A stretch of 64,000 bases of DNA from Thermosulfurimonas sp. F29 (lineage in GTDB: Bacteria; Desulfobacterota; Thermodesulfobacteria; Thermodesulfobacteriales; Thermodesulfobacteriaceae). Position 1 is the first letter of the stretch; every line of letters starts with the position of its first letter. The position numbers were made by a program, and so were the translations under genes. The stretch is taken from assembly GCF_019688735.1 (NCBI RefSeq), contig NZ_JAIFYA010000002.1, positions 248,001-312,000 of the forward strand, in the 5' to 3' direction. Shown piece by piece: positions 2,593 to 16,968 of this stretch. Below the pieces are notes generated by a model. It was not told where the DNA came from and searched no databases. It was given only the letters and a program-made list of their open reading frames with translations.

Positions 2593-3315
2593 TTAATCCC
2601 GTACCTCAAAGGTAAGGGAGGCCGAGAAATCAACCCGGTGATTGCATACCACCATCCACACTCCGGGACGGGCAATTTTGATGCGGGCTATGCCTCTGGC
2701 ATCGCTACGGGTAATCACCGGAAAAGGTTCTTTTTCGGACCAGTAGCCGGCATAAGTGGCATAGACAAAGGTGGAAAGGGGTTTTCCGTCAAACATAATC
2801 CGTACCGGAAGTTCCTCTCCGGGTTTTATCAGGGCGGGATTTTTCAGGGGGATAATTTCCAGTCTGTACCCCAAGGGTTCTGTGAAGGATCCTTTAAGGT
2901 TTTGTCCCACCACGATTATGGCCTTGGCGTACTTTCCGGAAGGAACCTGTTCCGGAGTACCCCTGCGTACCCGGGCAGTCCCCACTACATAAACCCCCTC
3001 CTCGGGAGGAGTGAAACGGGCTAACACAAAGCCCTTCCGAGAACGCGGTTTTTTGCTGAGGGGGTGTGGTTCGAGATCGTGGACCGTGAACTTTTTTCCG
3101 GATGGGCTCAGAACCACGAAAGGACTCAGGCTCTCCGGAGGAATTATGAGATCGTCATGGGGAAAATTGTGTCCAAAACAAATTTTAAGATTTACGGTTT
3201 CGCCGGGAGAAAAGTAAAAATGAGGGGTGTAGAGCCATAGGTCGTGGCCTCTGGCCGGGTTCGCCAGGATAAAAAATCCCAGGCACAGACTACCGAGAAT
3301 CACCAGTTTTTTCAT
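2593..3315 (-). CDS. DUF4198 periplasmic protein (NikK-like, probable Ni/Co-binding)
   Basis: A 240-residue exported protein with a clear signal peptide (residues 1-23, ending in NPARG). The mature chain would begin at or next to His in GHDLWLYTPHFYF, the HD-x-W N-terminus typical of DUF4198 proteins. The family includes NikK, a periplasmic component linked to nickel/cobalt ABC importers. Two beta-sandwich-like halves follow, the second with YATYAGYW and DARGIARIKIARPGVWMV. It lies between a TonB receptor and exbB in one operon. The inferred role is to accept or buffer metal in the periplasm; nickel is favoured because of the NikR box at 5403. Confidence 0.82.
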   Translation of the reverse strand: MKKLVILGSLCLGFFILANPARGHDLWLYTPHFYFSPGETVNLKICFGHNFPHDDLIIPPESLSPFVVLSPSGKKFTVHDLEPHPLSKKPRSRKGFVLARFTPPEEGVYVVGTARVRRGTPEQVPSGKYAKAIIVVGQNLKGSFTEPLGYRLEIIPLKNPALIKPGEELPVRIMFDGKPLSTFVYATYAGYWSEKEPFPVITRSDARGIARIKIARPGVWMVVCNHRVDFSASLTFEVRD

Positions 3316-3356: not shown

Positions 3357-5258
3357 TTAAAAATCCATTCTGGCACGCAGAAGCCAGGTGGCTCCCCACC
3401 AGGTTCGATCAGGCTCTCCGTAGTCTGAATTGAAGATATTGTTGCCCTCCAGGGATAGGACCACTCGTCCAACATGTTTCAGAATCTTGATATCTACCAC
3501 CGAGTAACTGGGATTTCGTTCGGTATTGTCGGTATTGGTGTAGAGTTCACTTGCGAACTGAAAGCCCAGATCAAAGGTAAGCCCCAGGCCCTGATGAGTG
3601 AGAATCACATGAGCCGCAAGAACATGATGAGGAACGAAGGGGAGCTCCTTTCCGGTATCTTTGTCTTCGGTATCGGTATAGGTATAGGCTAGATTAAGAC
3701 GGAGAAAATCCTCAAAGAAACTCGCCCGCACATAGACCTCCGCGCCCTGAGTATAAGCCTTCCGGGCGTTTTTAAATGTGCGTATTTTTTCCGCCATTCC
3801 GTCCCCGTTTATATCTCGATAGGTGTAATAGCGGATGATCATGTGCTTCACATCGTTGCGAAACAGCGAAAGCCCGAGGCGCAGGCGAGCTCTCCAGATC
3901 TTTTCCAGTCCCAAGGAGCAACCCCAGGAAGTTTCCGCGTCGAGATCCGGATTGGAAACATAAAAGTAATGGCCATGGGGATAGGGTTCGGTATAGAAAG
4001 CCTGCCTGATGGTGGGAGCTTTGAAACCTCTTCCTATAGAAGCTCGAAGCCGCAGGTCCGGTGTCACTTTGAAAAGAAGGCTTACTTTAGGACAGATTTC
4101 GGTACCGTATACAGAATGGTGATCTAGACGGGAGCCTAAGACCAGGTTAAAGGGTTTTTTCCAAAACAGTTCCAGTTCGTCCTGAAGGTAAATGCTGTAG
4201 ATATCCATCTTACGATGGGAAAAGGTGTAGTCCAGCTCTTCATTCCGGTACTCCGCTCCCACCGTAAGGAGGTGAAGTTCTCCCACGGGTTTGGTATAGC
4301 GACTTTCAACCACCCGATAATACATATCCCCGCGATAAAGGGCGTAGGGATAGGGATCAGTACCGCGGGAGTGAGCGGTAAACTTCCAGTCATAATAGTA
4401 GGCTCGCACGAAGAGTTCGGAGTCATTGGAGAGGGTGAATTTGAGATAGGGGGAGATACGGTATTTCCAGGCCTTCCGGACCACGAAGGTGTCCTGGGTG
4501 CGATAGTCCGTGTGTCTTTCGTCCTGCTGTACGCTCATTTTGAGACCGGCCAGGAGCCCCTCCCCCAGCTTGTAGGTCCATTTGGCCATGAAGCTCTGGC
4601 GTTCGTAATCCTCGTTGCGGTTGTTCTTTACCCCGTAGGCTCCCATTTCGGATTCCTCCCGGGCCACCTGAAGAAGAAGTCCCCAGGGGTCTTCCCGGGT
4701 TCCCCAGTAGAGATATTGAAGATTGGTGTCATAACTTCCGTAGCCCCCCTCGAAACCGTAGATGGTGCGCTCGGGGATCTCTTTGGTGATAATGTTGACC
4801 ACTCCGGCCAGGGCATCGCTTCCGTAAAGCACCGAGGCCGGTCCCTCCACTATCTCTATTCGTTCGATCATCTGCGGGGGTATCTGGTTCAGTCCTATCC
4901 CGGAATCTCCCATTCCTTCACCCCGTACGCGTTCACCGTCTAAAAGGATTAATCCGTAACCCTCGTTGAAACCGAGACCCCGGATCAGGGCTCGCCAGGC
5001 GGATATTCCGGGAGCATCCTCATCCCTCACGAAGATACCGGGTACATAACGCAGAAGATCGCTTACGGTCTGAGAACTTGAACTTTCTATATCCTTCTGA
5101 GTGATTATGTAGGTTTCTACCGGAACCTCTTCCAGGGGGTGTGGAGTCTTGGTGGCGGTGATTACGATCTCCCTCGTGGAACCGGAGACTTCGCCGGCCC
5201 CGGCCTTGAAAGGGAACAGTCCCAGGGCGAGAAGCAGGAGGAACACGACCCGTCCCAT
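3357..5258 (-). CDS. TonB-dependent outer-membrane receptor 1
   Basis: A 633-residue receptor. The start chosen is the ATG at 5258 (MGRVVFLLLLALGLFPF), which gives a signal peptide and a good ribosome binding site (GGAGGTGAT); an upstream ATG at 5297 would place hydrophilic residues before it. After cleavage comes a TonB box-like REIVITATK, then the plug domain (about 40-155) with LLRYVPGIFVRDED, IERIEIVEGPASVLYGSDALAGVVNIIT, and a 22-strand-type barrel ending in Phe (RARMDF). It heads the minus operon with DUF4198-exbB-exbD-tonB. The substrate is not readable from sequence; the neighbours suggest a metal chelate. It resembles CirA/BtuB-sized receptors. Confidence 0.93.
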   Translation of the reverse strand: MGRVVFLLLLALGLFPFKAGAGEVSGSTREIVITATKTPHPLEEVPVETYIITQKDIESSSSQTVSDLLRYVPGIFVRDEDAPGISAWRALIRGLGFNEGYGLILLDGERVRGEGMGDSGIGLNQIPPQMIERIEIVEGPASVLYGSDALAGVVNIITKEIPERTIYGFEGGYGSYDTNLQYLYWGTREDPWGLLLQVAREESEMGAYGVKNNRNEDYERQSFMAKWTYKLGEGLLAGLKMSVQQDERHTDYRTQDTFVVRKAWKYRISPYLKFTLSNDSELFVRAYYYDWKFTAHSRGTDPYPYALYRGDMYYRVVESRYTKPVGELHLLTVGAEYRNEELDYTFSHRKMDIYSIYLQDELELFWKKPFNLVLGSRLDHHSVYGTEICPKVSLLFKVTPDLRLRASIGRGFKAPTIRQAFYTEPYPHGHYFYVSNPDLDAETSWGCSLGLEKIWRARLRLGLSLFRNDVKHMIIRYYTYRDINGDGMAEKIRTFKNARKAYTQGAEVYVRASFFEDFLRLNLAYTYTDTEDKDTGKELPFVPHHVLAAHVILTHQGLGLTFDLGFQFASELYTNTDNTERNPSYSVVDIKILKHVGRVVLSLEGNNIFNSDYGEPDRTWWGATWLLRARMDF

Positions 5259-5295
5259 AATCACCTCCGTAATATTTTTTAAAAATTGATGGCAC

Positions 5296-5323
5296 AATAT
5301 ATCGGAGAAGGGGTTAGTGTCAA
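5296..5323 (-). promoter_or_regulatory. Promoter of the minus TonB operon
   Basis: On the minus strand a perfect -35 TTGACA (5323-5318) and a -10 TATATT (5301-5296) are separated by 16 bases, about 40 bases upstream of the receptor 1 ATG. No NikR-type palindrome was found over this promoter. A lone 6/7 half-site (GTGCTAC, 5337-5343) lies just upstream and has no partner. Confidence 0.65.
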
Positions 5324-5374
5324 GATTTTATAAAAAGTGCTACTAATCGGAGTCCCTAGAGTTCCGGTTCCGGC

Positions 5375-5403
5375 TTGACAGTCCCGGGGGAAGCGGTTAT
5401 CTG
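5375..5403 (+). promoter_or_regulatory. Promoter of the plus nickel-uptake operon
   Basis: A perfect -35 TTGACA (5375-5380) is followed after 17 bases by a weak -10 (TATCTG, 5398-5403). The -10 runs directly into the NikR-like operator, which is the arrangement expected for repression by metal-loaded NikR. The ribosome binding site AGGAGGAAAG comes right after the operator. Confidence 0.6.
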
Positions 5404-5429
5404 TGTTACAAATTTTATGAAAATAACAC
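5403..5429. promoter_or_regulatory. NikR operator (nickel-responsive)
   Basis: GTGTTAC (5403-5409), a 13-base spacer, and ATAACAC (5423-5429). The consensus described by comparative genomics for deltaproteobacterial NikR sites is GTGTTAC-N13/14-GTAACAC, so 13 of 14 half-site bases agree with the correct spacing. It lies between the promoter and the ribosome binding site of TonB receptor 2. Inference: nickel-bound NikR represses the receptor-CooC-ABC-CobN-ChlID operon when nickel is plentiful. No nikR gene is in the window. Confidence 0.8.
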
Positions 5430-5440
5430 AAGGAGGAAAG

Positions 5441-7639
5441 ATGGGTGCCTGGTGGAAAATGGTCCTGGTGCTTACGGTTATTCTGGTTGCCGGGACGGGA
5501 CTGGCGGCCGAGAACCGGGGGTCAGAGATAGTGGTCACAGCCTCCAGGATCCCTCAGGTAATCGGTGAAGCCCCCGCGGCGGTGAGCGTGATCACCCGGG
5601 AAGACATGGAAAAGAAGAATCTCCAGACCCTGGACGAGGCGCTCAGGCACGAGGCCGGGGTCTTCGTCCACCGCCGCAAGGGAATAATGGACACGGTGGC
5701 TTCCGTGGAGCTAAGGGGGATGCCCCGCCAGGGACGAACCCTGGTTCTTCTGGACGGAATTCCTCTCAACGACGGATATTCAAACAGCGTCTGTTGGGCC
5801 ACCCTTTCGGTGGACGAGGTGAAGAGGGTGGAGGTGGTGCGGGGCCCCTTTTCCTCCCTCTGGGGTGGAAACGCCATGGGAGGGGTGATAAACATCATCA
5901 CCCGTCTTCCGGAAAGGTTTACCTTTTCGGTCACGGGCGGTGTGGGAGAGGATGTTACCCGCCGCTGGCGCGTAAGCCTGGGAGACCGGGTGGGGCGCCT
6001 GGCCTTTCTCGCCGGCTACGAGGAGGACCGCACGGAGGGATATCCCACGGTCCCGGTATTGAAATCGCCTGAAACCGGAACCGGAACCCTGACCGGAGGA
6101 TATCCCACCACCGACCCCACCGGAGAGAGGCTGCGCTGGGTGGTGGGAGACAAGGGAGATAATCGGGGCGAGCGCTGGAATTATCACTTGAACATCGGGC
6201 TTGATGTTAGGAACGAGGGAGAAATAAGACTCGGGTTCCAGCACGGGGTCCAGCGGTATGATTACGGGCATCCCCACACCTATCTTACCGATACCGCCGG
6301 AAATCCCTCCTTCTCCGGCACGGTAAAGATCCCCGGAGGACTTGCGGCCTCGGTTTCTCCTTACGACTTCATCTCCTATGCCGGTCTCGGAGACTATGAG
6401 ACGAGCATCGTCTCCTTCAACTATCGGGATGTCTTCGGGGAACTCGAAACCGAGCTCAACTTCGGCTTCCTGAGAAGGGACGGATACTATACGAGACCCT
6501 ACCGGGATGGGGATTACCACACCGCCTCCGGAGAAAAAAATGACAGCGACAGCGAGACCTATTACCTGGATGTGAAGGGCAATCTCCCCCTGGGAGAAAA
6601 GCACCTTCTTACCGCGGGGCTTACCCTGCGCAGGGACTGGTCGAATGTGGAAACTCACGAGCTGGCTTTCTATCGGGATGAGGATTCCGAGGGGGAAAAA
6701 CTCTATCTTTCCCGGGGGAAGAGCCGCGCGCTCGGCCTCTTCGTGCAGGACATCTGGACCTTAAGGAAGGATCTTTCCCTTTACCTGGGGCTGCGCTACG
6801 ACCACTGGTGGACCTACGACGGTAAGGCCGGAGAGGTGGGAGCCGTGGAGGAGTACGACGATCGGGACGACGGAGCCTTTTCCCCCAAGGCGGCCCTGGT
6901 CTGGCGTCCGGACAGTTCCACCAGCCTGAGACTTTCGGTAGGCAAGGCCTTCCGTCCCCCCAACCTTTATGAGCTCTACCGCACCTGGAGCTGGTACGGA
7001 CGCACCTACCGCTCCAATCCCGATCTTGATCCCGAGACCTCCTGGAGCGTGGAGGTGGGGGGAGAGAGGTGGTGGTTCGGAAAGCGCCTGCGTCTTAGTG
7101 CCTCCCTCTTCCGCACCTGGATGAAAGACTTCATATACCGGGCCTACCATTCCGATACCCGGGAATACATCTGGACCAACTCCGGTAAGGGAGAGATCCT
7201 GGGTTTCGAGGGCGAGCTCGAACTCAAACCCCTTTCCTGGCTTTCCGCCGTGGTTAACTACACCCGCAACGATACCAGGATCACGGACAATCCGGCCAGA
7301 CCCGAATCCGAGGGTAAACGCTTTGTGGATGTTCCGCCCTGGATCTGGAATTTCGAGCTCTCGGCCGAACCCCCCCTCCCCGGAAATCTACCCGGGCTCA
7401 AGTTCTCCGTATTCGGACACTATGTTGGCAAGGTCTTCCGTTACGACGACAACTCCGACAGGGCTGAAGGAGTTTACGGGACTTCGGAGGAGTACTTCGT
7501 GGCCGATGTCAAGGTGAGTCTTATCTGGCGCAGGGCGACCCTCTCTTTTTCCGTCAACAATGTCTTTGACGAGGATTACTACGATTACTACCGGGCCCCG
7601 GGAAGGACCTGGTTTGGGGAGTTGAAGTTTGAATACTGA
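5441..7639 (+). CDS. TonB-dependent outer-membrane receptor 2, nickel-regulated
   Basis: A 732-residue receptor. The ATG at 5441 is chosen: it has a strong ribosome binding site and a clean signal peptide (MGAWWKMVLVLTVILVAGTGLAA). An in-frame start at 5375 would overlap the promoter and NikR box. A TonB box-like SEIVVTASR is followed by a plug domain with EVVRGPFSSLWGGNAMGGVINIITR and a barrel ending with an aromatic residue (GELKFEY). It differs clearly from receptor 1, so the locus probably handles two ligands or two forms of one. The NikR site directly upstream suggests nickel in complexed form as cargo. It is first in a seven-gene operon with CooC, ABC and chelatase genes. Confidence 0.93.
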   Translation: MGAWWKMVLVLTVILVAGTGLAAENRGSEIVVTASRIPQVIGEAPAAVSVITREDMEKKNLQTLDEALRHEAGVFVHRRKGIMDTVASVELRGMPRQGRTLVLLDGIPLNDGYSNSVCWATLSVDEVKRVEVVRGPFSSLWGGNAMGGVINIITRLPERFTFSVTGGVGEDVTRRWRVSLGDRVGRLAFLAGYEEDRTEGYPTVPVLKSPETGTGTLTGGYPTTDPTGERLRWVVGDKGDNRGERWNYHLNIGLDVRNEGEIRLGFQHGVQRYDYGHPHTYLTDTAGNPSFSGTVKIPGGLAASVSPYDFISYAGLGDYETSIVSFNYRDVFGELETELNFGFLRRDGYYTRPYRDGDYHTASGEKNDSDSETYYLDVKGNLPLGEKHLLTAGLTLRRDWSNVETHELAFYRDEDSEGEKLYLSRGKSRALGLFVQDIWTLRKDLSLYLGLRYDHWWTYDGKAGEVGAVEEYDDRDDGAFSPKAALVWRPDSSTSLRLSVGKAFRPPNLYELYRTWSWYGRTYRSNPDLDPETSWSVEVGGERWWFGKRLRLSASLFRTWMKDFIYRAYHSDTREYIWTNSGKGEILGFEGELELKPLSWLSAVVNYTRNDTRITDNPARPESEGKRFVDVPPWIWNFELSAEPPLPGNLPGLKFSVFGHYVGKVFRYDDNSDRAEGVYGTSEEYFVADVKVSLIWRRATLSFSVNNVFDEDYYDYYRAPGRTWFGELKFEY

Positions 7640-7672: not shown

Positions 7673-8482
7673 ATGAAAATCGTAATCTGTGGCAAGGGGG
7701 GTAGCGGTAAGAGTACTCTTACCGCCTTATTGGCCGCATTCCTGGCCGAACAGAACCGGGGTGTGCTGGTAGTGGATGCGGACGAGTCCAACCCCGGGCT
7801 TTATCGTCTGCTCGGTTTCGAGAGCCCTCCCCGCACCCTGATGGATCTTCTGGGAGGCAAGGATTCCGTCCGGGAAAAACTGAGGCGGAAGATCCGGAAT
7901 GAAGGAAGAGAAGAGGTGAATCTTTTTGAAAGGGAGAGGATTTTTCCCGGGGATATCCCGGGGGACTTCCTGCGGCGGTGGGGGAGCTGCCTGCTTGTGG
8001 TGGTGGGGAAGGTCGCTCGTGCCCGGGAGGGATGTGCCTGTCCGATGGGGGTGGTGGCCAGGGAGTTTTTGAGGCGGCTTGAGACTCCTCCCGGAGAGAT
8101 CGTGCTGGTGGATACCGAGGCCGGGGTGGAACACTTCGGACGCGGGCTCGAGACCGCGGTAGACGGAGTGCTTGCGGTGGTGGAACCATCCCTGGAGTCC
8201 GTAGTGCTTGCGGAAAGAATAAGGGACCTCGCCATCGGTTCCGGAGCACACTTTCTGGGTGTGGTTTTGAACCGGCTCACCCCCGAGGCCGAGGTCATTC
8301 TGGGGGAGGAGGTCAAAAGGAGGGGACTCCCGGTGCTAGGAAGGTTCGGGGTGAGGCCGGAATTCACCGGGGCTTCCCTCCGGGGCGAAAGAGTCCCTCT
8401 ATCCGAAGAAATCCGGGGGGAGCTGGTCCACATTCTTCAGGGTATCCAGGGGCGAATCCTGGAGAGGGCCATCCGATCATGA
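7673..8482 (+). CDS. CooC-type nickel-chaperone ATPase
   Basis: A 269-residue MinD/ArsA-type P-loop ATPase. The deviant Walker A is GKGGSGKST at residues 7-15 with the signature lysine; DADESNPGLYRLLG follows, and VDTEAGVEHFGRG is the switch II region. A Cys-x-Cys pair (C121 and C123, in GCACPMG) matches the metal-binding motif of CooC, the ATPase that helps insert nickel into CO dehydrogenase. Its place inside a NikR-controlled uptake operon supports a nickel role. No CODH genes are in the window, so it may serve uptake or demetallation rather than enzyme maturation. The stop overlaps the next ATG. Confidence 0.85.
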   Translation: MKIVICGKGGSGKSTLTALLAAFLAEQNRGVLVVDADESNPGLYRLLGFESPPRTLMDLLGGKDSVREKLRRKIRNEGREEVNLFERERIFPGDIPGDFLRRWGSCLLVVVGKVARAREGCACPMGVVAREFLRRLETPPGEIVLVDTEAGVEHFGRGLETAVDGVLAVVEPSLESVVLAERIRDLAIGSGAHFLGVVLNRLTPEAEVILGEEVKRRGLPVLGRFGVRPEFTGASLRGERVPLSEEIRGELVHILQGIQGRILERAIRS

Positions 8483-9450
8483 GGGTGAGGTATGCACTCA
8501 TTTTCGCGCTTATTGTGCTGGGCTGGGGGAGGGCTCTGGCCGTTCCGCACATCCTGGTGGTCAAAGAGGCCTCCGGTCGCAGGGTAGAGGTTCGGGTACC
8601 GGTAAAGAGGGCGGTTTTCCTCATCGGCTACGAGCTCATCCCTTATCTCGATCTCTGGGATCAAACGGTGGGGATTAGTTTGTGGGCCAAACGATACAGT
8701 GATCTCCTCAGGGAGGTCGGCGCGGAAAGGTTGAGGAAAATTCCTTCGGTGGGGACGGCCACTCAGGTAAATCCGGAGGCCCTGGCCCTTCTTTCTCCTG
8801 ATCTGATCGTTACCTGGGCGTATCGCCCGGAAACCGTTAAGGTCCTTGAAGAGTTTCTGGGGGAGAGGAATCACACCGCGATTATCGCCATCTCTCCGGA
8901 GAGTCTTAAGGACTTGCGCTCTACCATGAGACTTCTGGCCGAACTTTTCGGCAAGGAGGAACGCCTCCGGCGGGTGAACAGAGCCATGGAGGGGATCTTC
9001 TCCCTGGTCAGGGAGCGCCTCCGGGGCCTTAAGGAAAACGAAAAGAAACGGGTCCTCTGGCTGTGGGGGGACCGATGTCACTGCCAGGTGGCCGGCGGAA
9101 GAGGGGTGGTGGCGGACATTCTGCGCCTTTCCGGCGGGAAAAACTGTGCCGGAGCCATCGATCATCCCTATCCCAGGGTCTCTCCCGAAAGGATTGTCCT
9201 CTGGAACCCGCAGGTCATCTTCATCTGGGGAAATGCCCCCTACGGAGTGAAGGACATCCTCCGGGACCGGAGACTGGCCGAGGTCGCGGCCGTAAAACGC
9301 GGAGCCGTTTTCAAGGCCCCTGCCTGGTCCACCTGGTCGCCCAGGGTGGCTCTGATAACCCTGTGGGTGGCCATGAAGATCTATCCCGAAAGGTTTCGCG
9401 GAATTTCCTTCAGGACCCTGGTGGAGAGGTTCAACCGGGATGCCCTCTAA
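8479..9450 (+). CDS. ABC importer periplasmic binding protein (FecB/BtuF type)
   Basis: A 323-residue class III binding protein with signal peptide (about 1-21, GRALA). The mature part shows the two-lobe PF01497 pattern: KRAVFLIGYELIPYLDLWDQ, SVGTATQVNPEALALLSPDLIV, then the long inter-lobe helix and the second lobe with RVSPERIVLWNPQVIFIWG. An unusual Cys-His-Cys (GDRCHCQVAGG) lies at the start of the second lobe and could bind metal. It starts with ATG overlapping the CooC stop and is coupled to a FecCD-type permease. The family carries haem, siderophores, cobalamin and chelated metals; nickel chelate is inferred from the operon. Confidence 0.88.
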   Translation: MRVRYALIFALIVLGWGRALAVPHILVVKEASGRRVEVRVPVKRAVFLIGYELIPYLDLWDQTVGISLWAKRYSDLLREVGAERLRKIPSVGTATQVNPEALALLSPDLIVTWAYRPETVKVLEEFLGERNHTAIIAISPESLKDLRSTMRLLAELFGKEERLRRVNRAMEGIFSLVRERLRGLKENEKKRVLWLWGDRCHCQVAGGRGVVADILRLSGGKNCAGAIDHPYPRVSPERIVLWNPQVIFIWGNAPYGVKDILRDRRLAEVAAVKRGAVFKAPAWSTWSPRVALITLWVAMKIYPERFRGISFRTLVERFNRDAL

Positions 9451-10474
9451 CCCTCTCTCCCCCTCGAGAGGCCTCTGGCGAAGGGAGGCCCTTATGGTAA
9501 TCGCAAGTATTCTGGCGATTTATCTTTCTATTTCCTTGGGACCGGCGGGTTTTAAACCCGGTTTGGCTCTCAAGGTCCTCTGGGCAAAACTCCGGGGGGG
9601 AGCTCCCGGAATAAGTCCCGGAATTTTAAATATTTTCTGGGAGATCCGAACCCCCAGGGTCCTGCTCGCGGCCCTGGTAGGGGCGGCTCTGGCCTCCTCC
9701 GGAGCGGCTCTTCAGGCCGTCTTTCGTAATCCGCTGGTGGATCCCTATCTCCTGGGGCTTTCCGCCGGGGGAGCGCTGGGGTGTGCGGTGGCCGTGGCCT
9801 GGTTGCCGCGGGTGCCGGTGTCGCTTCCGGCCTTTCTTTTCGCTTACCTGGCCGCCTTCCTGACCTACGGAGTGGCCCGATTATCCGGAGAGGTCTCCCG
9901 TATAAGTCTCATCCTCTCCGGGATTATCGTCTCCGCAGGACTCATGGCCCTGGTCTCCCTCATAAAATTCGTGGTGGATCCGCACCGCATGGCCGAAATC
10001 GTGACCTGGATGATGGGAAGCTTCGCTCTGAGCACCTGGGAGGTCGTCAGGCAGACCTTCCTTCCCGTGATCCTGGGACTTGTGGGGTTGCATCTATTGA
10101 GATTCCGGCTGAATCTCCTTTCCCTTTCCGAGGACGAGGCCAGGAGTCTGGGGGTCTCGGTGGAGAGGGAGCGAGCCGTCGTTATGGGCCTTGCGGCCCT
10201 GACGGTGGGGGCCGGTGTGGCCGCAGCCGGTATCGTGGGCTGGGTGGGATTGATGGTCCCTCACCTGGTTCGGCTCTCGGTAGGACCGGATCATCGGCGG
10301 CTGATCCCCCTTTCCATGTGCACCGGAGCGGGTCTCCTGGTGATCTCCGACACCCTGGCCCGCACCCTCACCTCCTTTGATCTCCCCGTGGGGATCATTA
10401 CCTCTCTCACCGGTATCCCCTTTTTCATTTATCTCCTCAGGCAGCAACGGACCGGGGGCTGGGAGCATGCTTGA
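9440..10474 (+). CDS. ABC importer permease (FecCD/BtuC type)
   Basis: A 344-residue polytopic permease of the FecCD family with about ten helices. Family signatures seen are EIRTPRVLLAALVGAALASSGAALQ and FRNPLVDPYLLGLSAGGALG near the N-terminal third, and GIVGWVGLMVPHLVRLSVGPDHR, the ATPase-contacting region, near the C-terminus. The ATG at 9440 overlaps the binding-protein gene by 11 bases; a second ATG at 9494 is possible but would leave a gap and trim little. It forms the membrane channel of the type II importer with the flanking genes. Confidence 0.93.
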   Translation: MPSNPLSPSRGLWRREALMVIASILAIYLSISLGPAGFKPGLALKVLWAKLRGGAPGISPGILNIFWEIRTPRVLLAALVGAALASSGAALQAVFRNPLVDPYLLGLSAGGALGCAVAVAWLPRVPVSLPAFLFAYLAAFLTYGVARLSGEVSRISLILSGIIVSAGLMALVSLIKFVVDPHRMAEIVTWMMGSFALSTWEVVRQTFLPVILGLVGLHLLRFRLNLLSLSEDEARSLGVSVERERAVVMGLAALTVGAGVAAAGIVGWVGLMVPHLVRLSVGPDHRRLIPLSMCTGAGLLVISDTLARTLTSFDLPVGIITSLTGIPFFIYLLRQQRTGGWEHA

Positions 10475-11249
10475 GGTCCGTGACCTCTCCTTCGCCCGGA
10501 TTCTCAATGCGGTAAACCTGAAGCTCCGCCGGGGGGAATTCGTGATCCTTCTCGGCCCCAACGGAGCCGGAAAGACCACCCTGTTGAGGTGTATTCTCGG
10601 ACTATGTTCTCCGATCGAGGGCGAGATCGTCGTCTGCGGACATCCTTTGAGACGCCTTGCCTCTAAAGAGAGGGCCCGGCTCCTGGCCTATGTTCCTCAG
10701 TCCTATCAACCGGTCTTTCCCTATACCGTCCTGGACTTCGTCCTGCTGGGACGCACCCCTCACTTGGGATTTCTATCGCATCCCGGAAAAAGGGACGAAA
10801 TCAAGGCCAGGAAAGTGCTTCGGGAGCTGGGGCTTGAGCCCCTCCTTCACCGTTACCTTACGAATCTTTCCGGCGGAGAGCGCCAGCTGGTGCTGTTCGC
10901 AAGGGCCCTCCTTCAGGAGGCTCCGATATTGCTCCTTGACGAACCCATCGCCAACCTGGATCTCAAACATCAGCTCCGGGTACTTTCCAGTGTCCACAGG
11001 CTGGTCAGAGAGAAAGGACTTACGGTGCTGGCCACCCTTCACGACCCGAATCTGGCCTTCGGTTTTGCCGATCGAGTCGTTCTTCTCAAGAAGGGGCGGG
11101 TACTTGCGGAAATGAACCCCCGGACACACCCCGGAGCCAAGGAACTTTTAGAGGAACTTTACGAGATTCCCCTGGAGATTCTACACTTTCGCGGCTATCC
11201 CCTAGTGTCCCTCACCGGTGCTTTTCCGAAAAATTTCCCTCGGAGGTGA
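10467..11249 (+). CDS. ABC importer ATPase (FecE/BtuD type)
   Basis: A 260-residue ATPase. The start is the ATG at 10467 (MLEVRDLSF), overlapping the permease end by 8 bases; an upstream frame extension is a shadow of the permease. Walker A is LGPNGAGKTT, the Q-loop VPQSY, the ABC signature NLSGGERQLVL, Walker B ILLLDEPIANLD, and the switch His is in ATLHDPNLA. It energises the importer made with the two preceding genes. The stop overlaps the CobN GTG (GTGA). Confidence 0.95.
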   Translation: MLEVRDLSFARILNAVNLKLRRGEFVILLGPNGAGKTTLLRCILGLCSPIEGEIVVCGHPLRRLASKERARLLAYVPQSYQPVFPYTVLDFVLLGRTPHLGFLSHPGKRDEIKARKVLRELGLEPLLHRYLTNLSGGERQLVLFARALLQEAPILLLDEPIANLDLKHQLRVLSSVHRLVREKGLTVLATLHDPNLAFGFADRVVLLKKGRVLAEMNPRTHPGAKELLEELYEIPLEILHFRGYPLVSLTGAFPKNFPRR

Positions 11250-14200
11250 AGACCGTGAAAATCGGGGCCATTTTGTGGGCCAGTTATGTTCCCGTTCTGA
11301 CCCGAGCCGCCGCCAGAGTCCGTGATCTGGGCCTTGAGGTCAGGATTTTTTCTTCCCGCACCCTGGAGGCCCATCCCGAAAAGAGGGAGGAGGCCCTTGT
11401 CGAGCTCGCCCGGGCCGACATCATCCTCCTTTACCGCTCCGGTGATTCTTTCTGGGAGGAAATACTCCCTCGCCTGACCGAACTGGGAAACACCCGTCCC
11501 CTGGTATCCCTGGGATACGATCCCGCGTATTTGACCCTTTCTAATGTCTCCCCGGAGGTGGTTCAGAAGGCCCTGCGTTATGTCCTCTACGGAGGAGAGG
11601 AAAACTTCGTGAATCTTCTTCTCTATCTCGCTTCCGCTCTGGGGGGCCTCGATGTTTCCCATCGGGACCCCGAGCCCCTTCCCCTGGCCGGTATATATCA
11701 CCCTCGGGCCCCTAAAGTCTTTACCGACACCGGGGAATACCTCGCGTGGTACCGCCCCTCTCCGGGAACCCCCCTGGTGGGGATCCTTTATTCCCGTCAC
11801 AACTGGGTAAACGGGGAAATGGAGGTGGAGAGGGCTTTGATAGAGGAATTTGAGGCTCAGGGGCTCGGGGTGATACCGGTGTTCAGCTATAGCGTGAAGG
11901 ACGAGAGTCTCGGAAGCGAGGGCCCCGGGGAGGCGATAAGAAAGTTTCTTCTGGCCGACGGGCTTCCCCGAATAGAGGCCCTGATCAAACTCGTCCTTTT
12001 CTTCCTGGGAAGTACCCGCGAGAAGGACCTTTCGGATCCTTCGGTTTCCACTTCCGGGGTGGAGGTCCTTCGCCGGCTCGGAGTTCCGGTATTTCAGCCG
12101 GTGGTGGCTTACTATCGCACGGTGAGCGAGTGGGAAGAGGATCCCCGGGGACTTTCGGCGGAGGTCGCCTGGTCGGTGGCCCTTCCGGAATTCGAGGGAG
12201 TCATAGAGCCTCTTTTCATCGGCGCCATGAAAAGGGAAGAGGATCCCCTGACCGGGGCCGTTCTGGAACGGCGGGTCCCGGTGAGGGAGAGGGTTCGGAG
12301 GCTGGTGAGGAGGGTTAAGGCCTGGATCGAACTCCGTTGCAAGCCTCCTGCGGAACGCCGGGTGGTCCTGGTGTTGCACAATAATCCCTGTGCCTCCGTG
12401 GAGGCCACGGTGGGGGCCGGGGCCCATCTGGATACCCTTGAGAGTGTGGCCCGGATCCTGAAACGGCTTAGGCTTAAGGGCTATCGCATCGAGGGAGAGC
12501 CCGAAAACGGAAAGGAACTGATTGACCTGATCCTCAAAAGGAAGGCTATTTCGGAATTCCGGTGGACCACGGTGGAGGAAATCGTGAAAAAGGGGGGTGC
12601 CCTGGCCATGGTTCCGCTTGAGGAGTACCTCTCCTGGTGGGAGGAATTTCCGGAGGAAGTTCGCCTGAGGATGAGGGAGGCCTGGGGGGAGCCCCCGGGG
12701 GAGGAGAAGAACGGTGTCCCCGCGGCCATGGTGCATGAGGGAAAGATCGTGGTCACCGGGCTTCGTTTCGGAAACGCGGTGGTCTGCGTTCAACCCAAGC
12801 GGGGCTGTGCCGGTCCGCGCTGTGACGGGAAGGTATGCAAGATCCTTCACGATCCCGAGGTTCCTCCTCCCCACCAGTATGTGGCCACCTACCGCTGGCT
12901 CGAGAGGGTCTTCGGAGCGGATGTGATCATCCATGTGGGCACCCACGGCAACCTGGAATTTCTTCCGGGAAAGGGGGTAGGGCTCTCCGCGTCCTGTTTT
13001 CCTGATCTCTCCATTCACGAGCGCCCTCATCTTTACATTTATAATTCCGACAATCCCCCGGAGGGCACCATCGCCAAACGGCGAAGTTATGCCGTTCTGG
13101 TGGATCACCTGCAGACGGTCCTTGAGGCCGGAGGGCTTTATGAGGGTTATCTTGAGCTGGATCGACTCCTTGAGGAATACGAGAGGGCGGCTGCGGGAAG
13201 CCCGGCCCGGGCCCACGAGATACTTCACCGTCTGGTTGATCTTGTTCGGAAAACCGGTCTCGACCGGGAGGTGAATTCCCCGGAGGAGATCGGACCGGAG
13301 GAGTTCGTCCGTCGCATTCACGAGGCCCTGACCCGCCTGCGAAGTACCCAGGTGCCCCGGGGTATGCACATCTTCGGAGAGATTCCCCGGGGCGAAAGAC
13401 TGGCCGAATTCATACGAGCCGTTCTGCGCCACGATTCCGGGGAGCCTTCGGATCTCCGGCGGGTGATGGCCCGGGCTCTGGGTTTTCGGCTGGAGGATCT
13501 CCTGCAGGACCCTTCCAGAGGTCGGCTCCTCGAGCGGGTGGAGAAACTTTCCGGCGAATTCGTCCGCGGCGTTCTCGATGGAAAAAAGGCCGGTGAAGTT
13601 CTCGTCCGTCTCTGCGGAAAGGAGGCTTCCGAGAGGATCCCCGCGGGACACCTGGAAGAGTTGGTCTCCCGGATAAAGGATCTCAAAAGCCGCATCGAGG
13701 CCTCGGACGAGATGGGGGCCCTACTTTACGGGATCTCCGGGGGGTACATCCCTCCCGGGCCCTCCGGACTCATAACCCGTGGCCGGGACGACATTCTTCC
13801 CACTGGGAGGAACTTTTACTCCCTTGATCCCGAAAGGGTTCCCACGAAAGCGGCCTACGCCGTGGGCGTCAGGCTGGCCGAGGCCTTACTCGAAAAGTTT
13901 CGGAAAGACGAGGGGAGGCTTCCCGAAAATGTGGCTTTTTACTGGATGTGCACGGACATCATGTGGAGCGAAGGGGAGGTCATGAGCCAGATACTCTACC
14001 TGCTGGGGGTGAGACCGGTCTGGCTCCCCAACGGCCGGATAAAGGGGCTTGAGGTCATTCCGCTCCACGAACTCGGTCGCCCCCGCATAGATGTCACGAT
14101 CAGGGTTTCCGGAATCACCAGAGACAACTTCCCCCGATGTCTGGAGCTGGTGGACGAGGCGGTGTGTCTGGTGGCGGAGCTTGAGGAACCCCCGGAGATG

Positions 14201-15112
14201 AACTTCGTGCGCAGACACACCCTGGAACGGCTCGAAAAGCTGGGAGGCAGAAAGGACGCCTTCCGCAGGGCCACCTTCCGGCTCTTCGCTTCTCCTCCGG
14301 GCACCTATCAGTCCGGGGTGAACCTTGCGGTTTACGCCTCAGCCTGGAAAACCGAGAAGGATCTCGCCGAGGTCTTTCTGTACTGGAACGGCTACGCTTA
14401 CGGAAAAGGCGTCTTCGGAGAGAAGGCCCATCGGGAATTTGCCGAAGGTCTCCGCACGGTGGAGGCCACCTTCAACAATTCCCTCACCGATGAATACGAT
14501 CTTTTCGGTTGCTGCTGCTACTTCGGTACCCACGGCGGACTTACGGTGGCCGCAAGGGAACTCTCCGGGAAAAGGATAAGGGCCTACTACGGTGATACCA
14601 GGGAGAGGGCGGCGGTTGAGGTTCGTGACCTTGCCGACGAGATCCGGCGGGTGGCCAGGGCCAAACTCCTGAATCCGCGCTGGATAGAGGGCATGAAACA
14701 GCATGGCTACAAGGGAGCGGCGGAGATCTCCAAGCGCATCGGGCGCCTCTTCGGCTGGCAGGCCACCACCGGTGAGGTGGACGACTGGATCTTCGACGAG
14801 ATTACCCGTAAATTTGTGGTGGACAGAGAGAATCGAGAGTTCCTCATGAGGCACAACCCTTACGCCCTGGAGGAGATAGCCCGAAGGCTACTTGAGGCGG
14901 AGAAAAGGGGTCTCTGGAAGCCGGAGGCCGGATTGCTGGAAAAATTGAGAGACGCTTACCTTGAGCTCGAGGGACGCCTCGAGGACGCGATAGGAGAGAC
15001 CGGAGGCGATTTTCAGGGCGGGGCCGTGGACATGTATTCCGCCGATGAGGTGGCTGAATGGCAGGCGAGGATGAAGGACCTCCGCCGGGAAATCGGAGAG
15101 ATGTGGAAATGA
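11246..15112 (+). CDS. CobN/BchH-type metallochelatase large subunit
   Basis: A 1288-residue protein, the usual CobN length. Family hallmarks include NPKRGCAGPRCDG-like VQPKRGCAGPRCDGKVC, the metal-site region HVGTHGNLEFLPGKGVGLS, IYNSDNPPEGTIAKRRSYAV, FYWMCTDIMWSEGEV and the C-terminal MYSADEVAEWQ. CobN inserts cobalt into hydrogenobyrinate diamide in the aerobic B12 pathway, BchH inserts magnesium into protoporphyrin, and HmuS-type CobN homologues act in anaerobic haem use. No other tetrapyrrole-synthesis gene is here. In a NikR-controlled TonB/ABC operon it more probably removes metal from, or inserts it into, an imported tetrapyrrole. The partner ATPase follows with an ATGA overlap. Confidence 0.9.
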   Translation: MKTVKIGAILWASYVPVLTRAAARVRDLGLEVRIFSSRTLEAHPEKREEALVELARADIILLYRSGDSFWEEILPRLTELGNTRPLVSLGYDPAYLTLSNVSPEVVQKALRYVLYGGEENFVNLLLYLASALGGLDVSHRDPEPLPLAGIYHPRAPKVFTDTGEYLAWYRPSPGTPLVGILYSRHNWVNGEMEVERALIEEFEAQGLGVIPVFSYSVKDESLGSEGPGEAIRKFLLADGLPRIEALIKLVLFFLGSTREKDLSDPSVSTSGVEVLRRLGVPVFQPVVAYYRTVSEWEEDPRGLSAEVAWSVALPEFEGVIEPLFIGAMKREEDPLTGAVLERRVPVRERVRRLVRRVKAWIELRCKPPAERRVVLVLHNNPCASVEATVGAGAHLDTLESVARILKRLRLKGYRIEGEPENGKELIDLILKRKAISEFRWTTVEEIVKKGGALAMVPLEEYLSWWEEFPEEVRLRMREAWGEPPGEEKNGVPAAMVHEGKIVVTGLRFGNAVVCVQPKRGCAGPRCDGKVCKILHDPEVPPPHQYVATYRWLERVFGADVIIHVGTHGNLEFLPGKGVGLSASCFPDLSIHERPHLYIYNSDNPPEGTIAKRRSYAVLVDHLQTVLEAGGLYEGYLELDRLLEEYERAAAGSPARAHEILHRLVDLVRKTGLDREVNSPEEIGPEEFVRRIHEALTRLRSTQVPRGMHIFGEIPRGERLAEFIRAVLRHDSGEPSDLRRVMARALGFRLEDLLQDPSRGRLLERVEKLSGEFVRGVLDGKKAGEVLVRLCGKEASERIPAGHLEELVSRIKDLKSRIEASDEMGALLYGISGGYIPPGPSGLITRGRDDILPTGRNFYSLDPERVPTKAAYAVGVRLAEALLEKFRKDEGRLPENVAFYWMCTDIMWSEGEVMSQILYLLGVRPVWLPNGRIKGLEVIPLHELGRPRIDVTIRVSGITRDNFPRCLELVDEAVCLVAELEEPPEMNFVRRHTLERLEKLGGRKDAFRRATFRLFASPPGTYQSGVNLAVYASAWKTEKDLAEVFLYWNGYAYGKGVFGEKAHREFAEGLRTVEATFNNSLTDEYDLFGCCCYFGTHGGLTVAARELSGKRIRAYYGDTRERAAVEVRDLADEIRRVARAKLLNPRWIEGMKQHGYKGAAEISKRIGRLFGWQATTGEVDDWIFDEITRKFVVDRENREFLMRHNPYALEEIARRLLEAEKRGLWKPEAGLLEKLRDAYLELEGRLEDAIGETGGDFQGGAVDMYSADEVAEWQARMKDLRREIGEMWK

Positions 15113-16968
15113 CCGGAAGGCTCTATCCCCTTTCGGCCATAGTGGGGCAGAAAGAAATGAAGCTTGCCCTCATGCTCTGTGCGATAAACCCGCGGCTTTC
15201 GGGAGTGCTCCTTTCCGGAGAAAAGGGCACGGGAAAGTCCACCGCTGCCAGGGCCCTGGCCCGTCTTATCGAGGGGCCTTTCGTGAATCTTCCCCTTTCG
15301 GCCACGGAGGAACGATTGATCGGTCATCTTTGCCTGGAGGAGGCCTTAAAGCACGGTCGAAGGGTCTTCGTGCCGGGCCTTCTCTCTCAGGCCGAGGGCG
15401 GCGTGCTCTATGTGGACGAGATAAATCTTTTGCCTCCATCCATCGTTTCCCTCTTACTTTCCGCCTCGGAGTCCGGGCGATTCCTTCTGATCGGTTCAAT
15501 GAATCCCGAGGAGGGTCCCCTCTCTCCGCAACTCCTTGACCGTTTCGGTCTCTATGTGGAGGTATCCGCCGAAAGGGATCCGGGTCTGCGGGTGGAGATC
15601 CTGAGGAGACGCCTCTTCTGGGAGATGGATCCCGAGGATTTTGAGAAGACCTTTGCGGAGGAGGAGAGGAAGCTCCGTGAGGAAATCTTAAAGGCCAGGA
15701 GTCTCCTCCCCGGGGTCAGGATTTCCGGCTACCTTCGTACTCTCATAGCCCGGCTGGTCCTGGAGTCCGCCGCAGCCGGTCACCGGGCGGAGATCTTTCT
15801 TCTGGAGGCCGTCCGGGCGCATGCGGCTCTGGCGGGCCGCTCCGAGGCCATCCCCGAGGATGTGGAGTCCGTGGCCGAACTGGTTCTCGCCCACCGCAGA
15901 CGGGAGAGATCCCGTGGCAGACCTAAACCTCAGCCCGAAAGTAAGCCCGGGGAGGAAAACAAGGAAGACACCAGACCTCCTCGGGATGATTACTCCCCGG
16001 GGGAAAAAGAGGCCCCTCAAGGTCGTTCTCACGAAACGCCGACGGAGGGGCCGGGTGGAGAAGAGAACGGTCGTACCGATAAGAAACTTGCCGAACCCGA
16101 GGAGGTAAGGCCCGAGGAGGGCGAGGACAAAGTCTTTTCCGTGGGAGAGGTCTTCCGGGTGAGGGAGTTTAGCGACCATCGTGAACGGCCGCAACGGGTC
16201 AAGATTTTCGGTAAAAGATCTAAGGGATTTTCTCTTACCGGAAGGGGCTATTTCGTGAGGGCCGTTCCCTATAAGGGAGAGGGGGAGATAGCCCTTGTCC
16301 CCACCTTTCTTTCGGCGGCCTTAAAGCAGAGGATTCGCGGGGGTGGTTTCGGAAGGTTCGTCATCAGGAAGGAGGATCTCCGGGCCAAGCTCAAGCTGGT
16401 GAGGAGCTCTCGTCTCGTGGTCTTCTGTGTGGACGGTTCGGGTTCCATGGCCGCCGAGGCCCGGATGAGGGAAACCAAGGGAGCCATCATGAGCCTTCTT
16501 CTTTCGGCCTATCAGAGGCGGGACCGGGTGGCGCTCATGGTGTTTCGCGGGGAGCGCGCCAGAATGGTCCTCCCGCCCACCAATTCCGTGGATCGGGCCG
16601 CAAGGGTCCTTTCGGAACTTGGAGTGGGAGGATCAACCCCGCTTTCCGCCGCCCTCAGCGAACTTTACCGGTGGCTTGAGGATATACAGAGAAAGGACTC
16701 CCGCCTTCTCACCACCGTTATTTTAATCACCGACGGGCGAGGCAATGTCAGTCTCACCGGAAGACCCCCGCGAGAGGAGATCGAGATCCTGGCTACCAGG
16801 CTTTCGAGGAACTTTCCGCAGACCGAATTCGTGGTGGTGGACACCGAGGCCGGGATGGTGAGACTCGAGATGGCCCGGAGACTCGCCGAGCTCCTTTCCG
16901 CCCGTTACTTCACCCCCGAGGCCCTTCGGGCCGACCGCCTGCTCGAGATCGCCCGCAAGGCCGTATAA
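15109..16968 (+). CDS. Fused ChlI/ChlD-type AAA-VWA chelatase subunit
   Basis: A 619-residue protein that supplies ATP-driven work to the CobN-type subunit. The start is the ATG at 15109, overlapping the cobN stop. The N-terminal AAA+ module (about 1-270) has Walker A GEKGTGKST and Walker B GGVLYVDEINLL. A charged low-complexity linker (about 280-350) follows, then a von Willebrand A domain with the MIDAS motif DGSGS (near 441) and GGSTPLS. Magnesium and cobalt chelatases keep I and D subunits separate or fused; the fused form is common with CobN homologues in anaerobes. The last 246 bases are overlapped on the other strand by the cas6 reading frame. Confidence 0.92.
   Translation: MTGRLYPLSAIVGQKEMKLALMLCAINPRLSGVLLSGEKGTGKSTAARALARLIEGPFVNLPLSATEERLIGHLCLEEALKHGRRVFVPGLLSQAEGGVLYVDEINLLPPSIVSLLLSASESGRFLLIGSMNPEEGPLSPQLLDRFGLYVEVSAERDPGLRVEILRRRLFWEMDPEDFEKTFAEEERKLREEILKARSLLPGVRISGYLRTLIARLVLESAAAGHRAEIFLLEAVRAHAALAGRSEAIPEDVESVAELVLAHRRRERSRGRPKPQPESKPGEENKEDTRPPRDDYSPGEKEAPQGRSHETPTEGPGGEENGRTDKKLAEPEEVRPEEGEDKVFSVGEVFRVREFSDHRERPQRVKIFGKRSKGFSLTGRGYFVRAVPYKGEGEIALVPTFLSAALKQRIRGGGFGRFVIRKEDLRAKLKLVRSSRLVVFCVDGSGSMAAEARMRETKGAIMSLLLSAYQRRDRVALMVFRGERARMVLPPTNSVDRAARVLSELGVGGSTPLSAALSELYRWLEDIQRKDSRLLTTVILITDGRGNVSLTGRPPREEIEILATRLSRNFPQTEFVVVDTEAGMVRLEMARRLAELLSARYFTPEALRADRLLEIARKAV

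Follow-up and report, generated by a model that had tools for sequence, protein, structure and literature searches.

Organization of the locus

The DNA analysed here (the window; 64 kb, G000:C2:248001-312000) comes from a Thermosulfurimonas-group genome of 2.35 Mb. A predicted operator for the regulator NikR is located between two divergent TonB-dependent receptors. Seven genes, closely spaced or overlapping, follow downstream of this box, from a TonB receptor through a ChlI-ChlD fusion. The features of the locus are as follows.

649-1515, 1512-1919 and 1912-2538 (649-2538 overall), minus strand: putative TonB, ExbD and ExbB-like energy-coupling genes (open reading frames, named from sequence)
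2593-3315, minus strand: DUF4198 (NikK-like) protein, downstream of TonB2 (PF10670, 130 bits)
3357-5258, minus strand: divergent TonB-dependent receptor, TonB2 (family scan)
5269-5295, minus strand: degenerate NikR-like site GTGCCAT-N13-ATATTAC (minus-strand reading), 10 bp upstream of TonB2
5375-5380, plus strand: -35 element TTGACA of the operon promoter (exact; the TTGACA-to-box spacing is similar in L017 and L051)
5403-5429, no strand assigned: predicted NikR operator GTGTTAC-N13-ATAACAC, located 11 bp upstream of the TonB1 ATG (5441)
5441-7639, plus strand: TonB-dependent outer-membrane receptor, TonB1 (Pfam PF07715, PF00593)
7673-8482, plus strand: MinD-type ATPase resembling CooC, with the motif Cys121-Ala-Cys123 (best match among solved structures CooC 3kje, E 2.2e-14)
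8479-9450, plus strand: periplasmic binding protein, Peripla_BP_2 (family scan)
9494-10474, plus strand: FecCD/BtuC-type permease (family scan; start codon read from sequence)
10467-11249, plus strand: ABC transporter ATPase (family scan; start codon read from sequence)
11246-15112, plus strand: large subunit of a CobN-type class I chelatase, Cys-Cys-Cys clade (PF02514; HVGTHG at 563-568, GCCCYFGTHGG at 1088-1098)
15058-16968, plus strand: ChlI-ChlD-like AAA+/VWA chelatase motor subunit, overlapping cobN (family scan)

The large chelatase subunit belongs to the CobN/ChlH superfamily, with a PF02514 score of 1288.7 bits and the HxGTHG motif present as HVGTHG. It is 94% identical to the CobN of T. 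dismutans S95 and carries the NCBIfam name cobaltochelatase. Several same-family relatives (G009, G012, G018, G020, G023, G027 and G029; loci L111-L116 and L122) have a CobN divided into two frames near residue 780-805, possibly a split gene or a frameshift. The CooC-like protein aligns with 3kje over residues 1-241, and its CxC at 121-123 is in register with the CxC of CooC. Its gene and the CODH catalytic gene are ~80 kb apart. Another CooC-like gene (C1:589761-590495, 40% identical) is likewise positioned away from the CODH gene.

The predicted NikR box and the operon promoter

The box at 5403-5429, whose sequence and coordinates were read exactly from the window, is GTGTTACAAATTTTATGAAAATAACAC, laid out as GTGTTAC-AAATTTTATGAAA-ATAACAC with a spacer of 13 bp. 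Comparison with the deltaproteobacterial NikR consensus, GTGTTAC-[N13/14]-GTAACAC (PMC545781), showed agreement in 13 of the 14 half-site bases, confirming the near-perfect match claimed in the preliminary description. Weight-matrix scans of the 64-kb window ranked the site first, both with an independent matrix made without it (23.4 bits, next 12.6) and with one that used only the published half-sites (23.3, next 11.3).

The chance expectation was estimated from 100 Mb simulated under an order-3 Markov model fitted to sequence of the same genome. The perfect palindrome with at most one mismatch is expected 0.002 times per 64 kb and 0.07 times per genome, and exact matches to the relaxed form GTRYTAY-N13-RTARYAC are also expected 0.07 times per genome (rough values, each from a simulated count of 3). 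The genome contains exactly two exact matches to the relaxed form, the 5403-5429 box and one at C3:258045, a count that is not fully independent since the relaxed form was chosen after the sites of the relatives were seen. A scan allowing up to three mismatches was uninformative (4 matches in the window vs. 1.1 expected; 70 in the genome vs. 100 for the reversed control), and thus the exact relaxed motif alone was used. With two matches found per genome against the expectation of 0.07, both in metal-uptake promoters, the 5403-5429 box is beyond chance. A fortuitous match, which has the shortness of the motif and nothing more in its favour, is scarcely credible.

The preliminary description also had the box overlapping the -10 region of a TTGACA promoter. 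The TTGACA at 5375-5380 is exact. However, the overlap with the -10 is weak, as the candidate TATCTG at 5398-5403 (spacer 17) is poor and is not called by a consensus scan. The box sits over the expected transcription start rather than squarely on the -10. AGGAGG precedes the receptor ATG, and no riboswitch was found in the window.

The T. dismutans orthologue of TonB2 has an intact box, GTGCTAC-N13-GTAATAC, at the position equivalent to the degenerate site at 5269-5295. NikR may control both divergent units, a weaker claim than that for 5403-5429. The TonB2 -35 is overlain by another candidate, GTGTCAA-N13-GTGCTAC at 5317-5343, which was rejected because its half-sites score low (rank 62).

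The NikR regulator and recurrence of the box

A nikR gene, as anticipated for this genome, was located at C2:696623 by a profile search (117 bits vs. a cut-off of 22). The N terminus of the encoded protein, MSELVRFGVSIPESLL, includes LVRFGVSIP, which places Arg, Gly and Ser at alternate positions of the DNA-reading strand. Geobacter NikR has the same Arg-Gly-Ser triad and reads the GTGTTAC-N13/14-GTAACAC class of operator. Among the 60 genomes searched, nikR was detected in 43, and it is nearly universal in the family.

The box at C3:258045 lies 21 bp before a DUF4198 gene that is followed by CbiM and CbiQ, forming a NikK-NikM-NikQ-type transporter. This CbiM has a NikL-like C-terminal part scoring below the NikL cut-off. 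The same box is positioned ahead of DUF4198-CbiM-CbiQ in T. dismutans and ahead of DUF4198-CbiM in G007. The suggestion that the box would also precede nik-type genes is thus borne out in this genome and two relatives. For hydrogenase and CODH genes it is not: CODH and NiFe hydrogenases, both Ni enzymes, are encoded in the genome, but neither of its two boxes is near their genes.

Across 30 genomes of the family, the relaxed form has 10 exact matches vs. 0 for the reversed control pattern, and 7 of the 10 lie ahead of a receptor, a NikK-NikM operon, or genes of porin-like or chelatase type. These seven include the boxes of the DUF4198-CbiM pair in T. dismutans and G007 and that of the second T. 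dismutans receptor. The exact matches in G011 and G019, located inside epimerase-like coding sequence, and that on contig C19 of G013, with no recognisable metal gene behind it, are regarded as chance. In T. dismutans (L180, 6518-6544), an exact box lies directly after a precorrin methyltransferase-like open reading frame, downstream also of a CbiK-like one, and 30 bp before a porin-like one. In G013 (L181, 7869-7895), an exact box lies between divergent chlD-like and chlI-like genes, with the CobN matches of that genome on another contig.

The expected conservation of the box before orthologous receptors was found in some relatives but not in others. T. dismutans and HyVt-483 retain the TTGACA, the spacing and an intact left half (GTGTTAC), with a degenerate right half (GTGATAC or GTGCTAC). 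In G033 and G036, from another family of the order, ATGTTAC-N13-ATAACAC is located between the divergent cobN and receptor; the two stretches are nearly identical and hence count as one observation. In L018, a second more distant lineage whose genome has nikR, a box is ahead of an FmdE-like gene heading a receptor-CobN cluster. This FmdE-like gene (5028-5999) carries a C-terminal Cys motif. In G009, G012, G018, G027 and G032, all of which have nikR, no clear box was found ahead of the orthologous receptor, the sites being weak or unrecognisable. Several relatives with nikR and an unrecognisable receptor box are AT-rich. A relaxed-form search of the g6 genomes found the exact box nowhere in them, and drift of the motif is therefore possible. 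Some orthologous sites look more like direct repeats than inverted ones (GTGTTAC-N13-GTGATAC, GTGCTAC, ATGTTAT), namely those at L017 3726-3752, upstream of the receptor in L051, and near 6215 in L109.

The lack of the box in some nikR-bearing relatives would fit a different regulator with a similar palindrome, and the binding of NikR to the box is itself a prediction. Such a regulator would nevertheless have to account for the match to the published NikR consensus (PMC545781), the recurrence of the box before NikK-NikM-type operons and the near universality of nikR in the family, and is considered quite unlikely.

Two paralogous receptor-CobN operons

A paralogous TonB receptor-CobN operon at C2:100-107 kb (C2:100684-106712, L185) is headed by a cobalamin riboswitch. 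The CobN of this operon has a Ser-Cys-Asp-Cys (SCDC) motif in comparison with Cys-Cys-Cys (CCC) in the window CobN, and the two paralogues fall in different clades of the CobN tree. The motif letters are among the 461 columns of the tree, with a few columns involved, and thus slightly bias it towards the unity of the window clade. The riboswitch-linked clade has the motif LSCDCxNAYHGG. A riboswitch is present upstream of SCDC-type CobN in six of seven loci (this genome and five of six relatives), the seventh locus ending at a contig edge. The window clade has the motif GCCCYFGTHGG, in which nearly all members keep the first two Cys and some have Ser, Ala or Gly in place of the third. Alignment with HmuS-like copies showed that the third Cys corresponds to the metal-facing His of HmuS. 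The CCC clade spans Thermodesulfobacteriota, methanogens, ANME archaea and some clostridia.

CbiK is located just below another cobalamin riboswitch of its own in this genome, indicating that the window CobN is not needed to insert cobalt. A CbiG-like open reading frame is present in L007. As L185 and CbiK are each headed by a riboswitch, the cobalt and corrinoid needs of the cell appear to be wired to riboswitches and the window operon to the NikR box. This internal contrast between two paralogous receptor-CobN operons, one with a cobalamin riboswitch and the other with a NikR box, is the strongest new evidence.

A role in cobalt or corrinoid metabolism is nonetheless a live rival, because a cobalamin riboswitch precedes a CCC-type CobN operon in Syntrophobacterales (L062), in whose genome no nikR was detected. 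The CCC clade may therefore be metal-flexible or serve corrinoids generally. The window operon would then import corrinoids or cobalt, CobN would act on corrin rings, and the NikR box would merely couple the operon to nickel status, for example to nickel/cobalt balance. The CobN, BtuC and BtuF-like annotations fit this role, as does the CbiM-type gene behind the C3:258045 box, from a family named for cobalt. However, the genome already has a separate receptor-CobN operon and CbiK with their own cobalamin riboswitches, the window has none, and a CooC-like gene is inside the window operon. The absence of detected nikR also lessens the weight of L062 for this genome. Corrinoid or cobalt import is thus rather improbable, though less so than the other rivals.

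Relation to known systems

The predicted regulation resembles the NikR regulon of the deltaproteobacteria Geobacter and Desulfovibrio in the operator sequence and spacing, in the location of sites ~20-200 bp from the start codon, and in the control of NikK/NikM/NikQ-type transporters (PMC545781). The published regulon consists of nikMQO/nikKMLQO, an Fe hydrogenase and one unknown cluster and, unlike the window, names no TonB receptor, FecCD ABC, CobN/ChlID or CooC genes (PMC545781). A description of the combined NikR, CobN and TonB arrangement was not found in the literature searched, outside which most subscription papers lie. Some later work on NikR regulons predicts NikR-controlled TonB receptors. 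In Helicobacter pylori, the TonB receptors FrpB4 and FecA3 are referred to as repressed by NikR (cited in PMC11247825 and PMC7689651). Similar to the window operon, these receptors represent NikR-linked, TonB-dependent outer-membrane uptake. To our knowledge, they have a different operator, and their operons contain no class I chelatase or CooC.

The window CobN shares with the CobNST cobaltochelatase the CobN family and an AAA+ motor partner. However, the organism has CbiK and CbiG of the anaerobic route, and the active-site motif of CobNST is of the SDD type vs. CCC in the window protein. The CooC-like protein resembles CooC, the nickel-insertion ATPase of CO dehydrogenase, in being a MinD-type ATPase with an aligned CxC, whereas its gene sits in an uptake operon.

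HmuS, a de-chelatase, shows that the CobN/ChlH superfamily can run backwards (PMC12583661). The Hmu heme-iron system also comprises an uptake operon with a large CobN/ChlH-superfamily subunit and an HxGTHG-type motif (PMC12583661). As HmuS removes iron from heme and the window TonB receptor matches heme-receptor profiles (below cut-off), the operon could in principle harvest heme iron like the Bacteroides Hmu system, with the box being incidental. However, the conserved His of HmuS lies in LSLDHxxEFMGG (PMC12583661), a motif that is absent from the window CobN, where the Cys-containing motif of its clade is found instead. The window operon also carries ChlID and, in place of a recognised iron-regulator site, a NikR-type box. 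Heme-iron harvesting is therefore very unlikely.

A proposed nickel-responsive uptake operon

The proposal that the box ties the seven genes to nickel is supported by the consensus match and rarity of the box, the presence of nikR with its Arg-Gly-Ser triad, the box before NikK-NikM-type genes, the CooC-like gene in the operon together with the CODH and NiFe hydrogenases of the genome, and the division of the two CobN paralogues by clade and by regulator (riboswitch or NikR box). The box is probably a NikR operator controlling the uptake and handling of a nickel chelate. Nickel-loaded NikR would bind 5403-5429 across the transcription start and turn off the seven-gene operon, which would be expressed when nickel is scarce. 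The chelate, which we infer to be macrocyclic, would enter through the TonB receptor, the periplasmic binding protein and the FecCD-type ABC transporter. A class I chelatase, CobN/ChlID, would act on it, most likely by removing the nickel, which would then be handed by the CooC-like ATPase towards Ni enzymes such as CO dehydrogenase. Alternatively, the chelatase step could insert metal into an imported or internal ring.

Because methanogens and ANME archaea share the CCC clade, Ni-tetrapyrroles such as F430 are the favoured, though unproven, substrate. More speculatively, the CobN of the CCC clade might be a nickel-tetrapyrrole (e.g. F430-type) chelatase that works in reverse. Together with ChlID, it would remove the nickel from imported Ni-macrocycles and deliver it to a CooC-type ATPase, doing for nickel what HmuS does for heme iron.

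Strict anaerobes and archaea commonly carry homologues of class I chelatases, and the 2025 HmuS paper describes the role of the archaeal ones as unclear (PMC12583661). Sister receptor-CobN operons in one genome, split by both regulator and active-site motif (SCDC vs. CCC), provide a testable nickel-versus-cobalt assignment for a large clade. A nickel assignment would correct automatic 'cobaltochelatase' annotations. The results suggest that a widespread type of CobN-like chelatase serves nickel, not vitamin B12, in these heat-loving bacteria.
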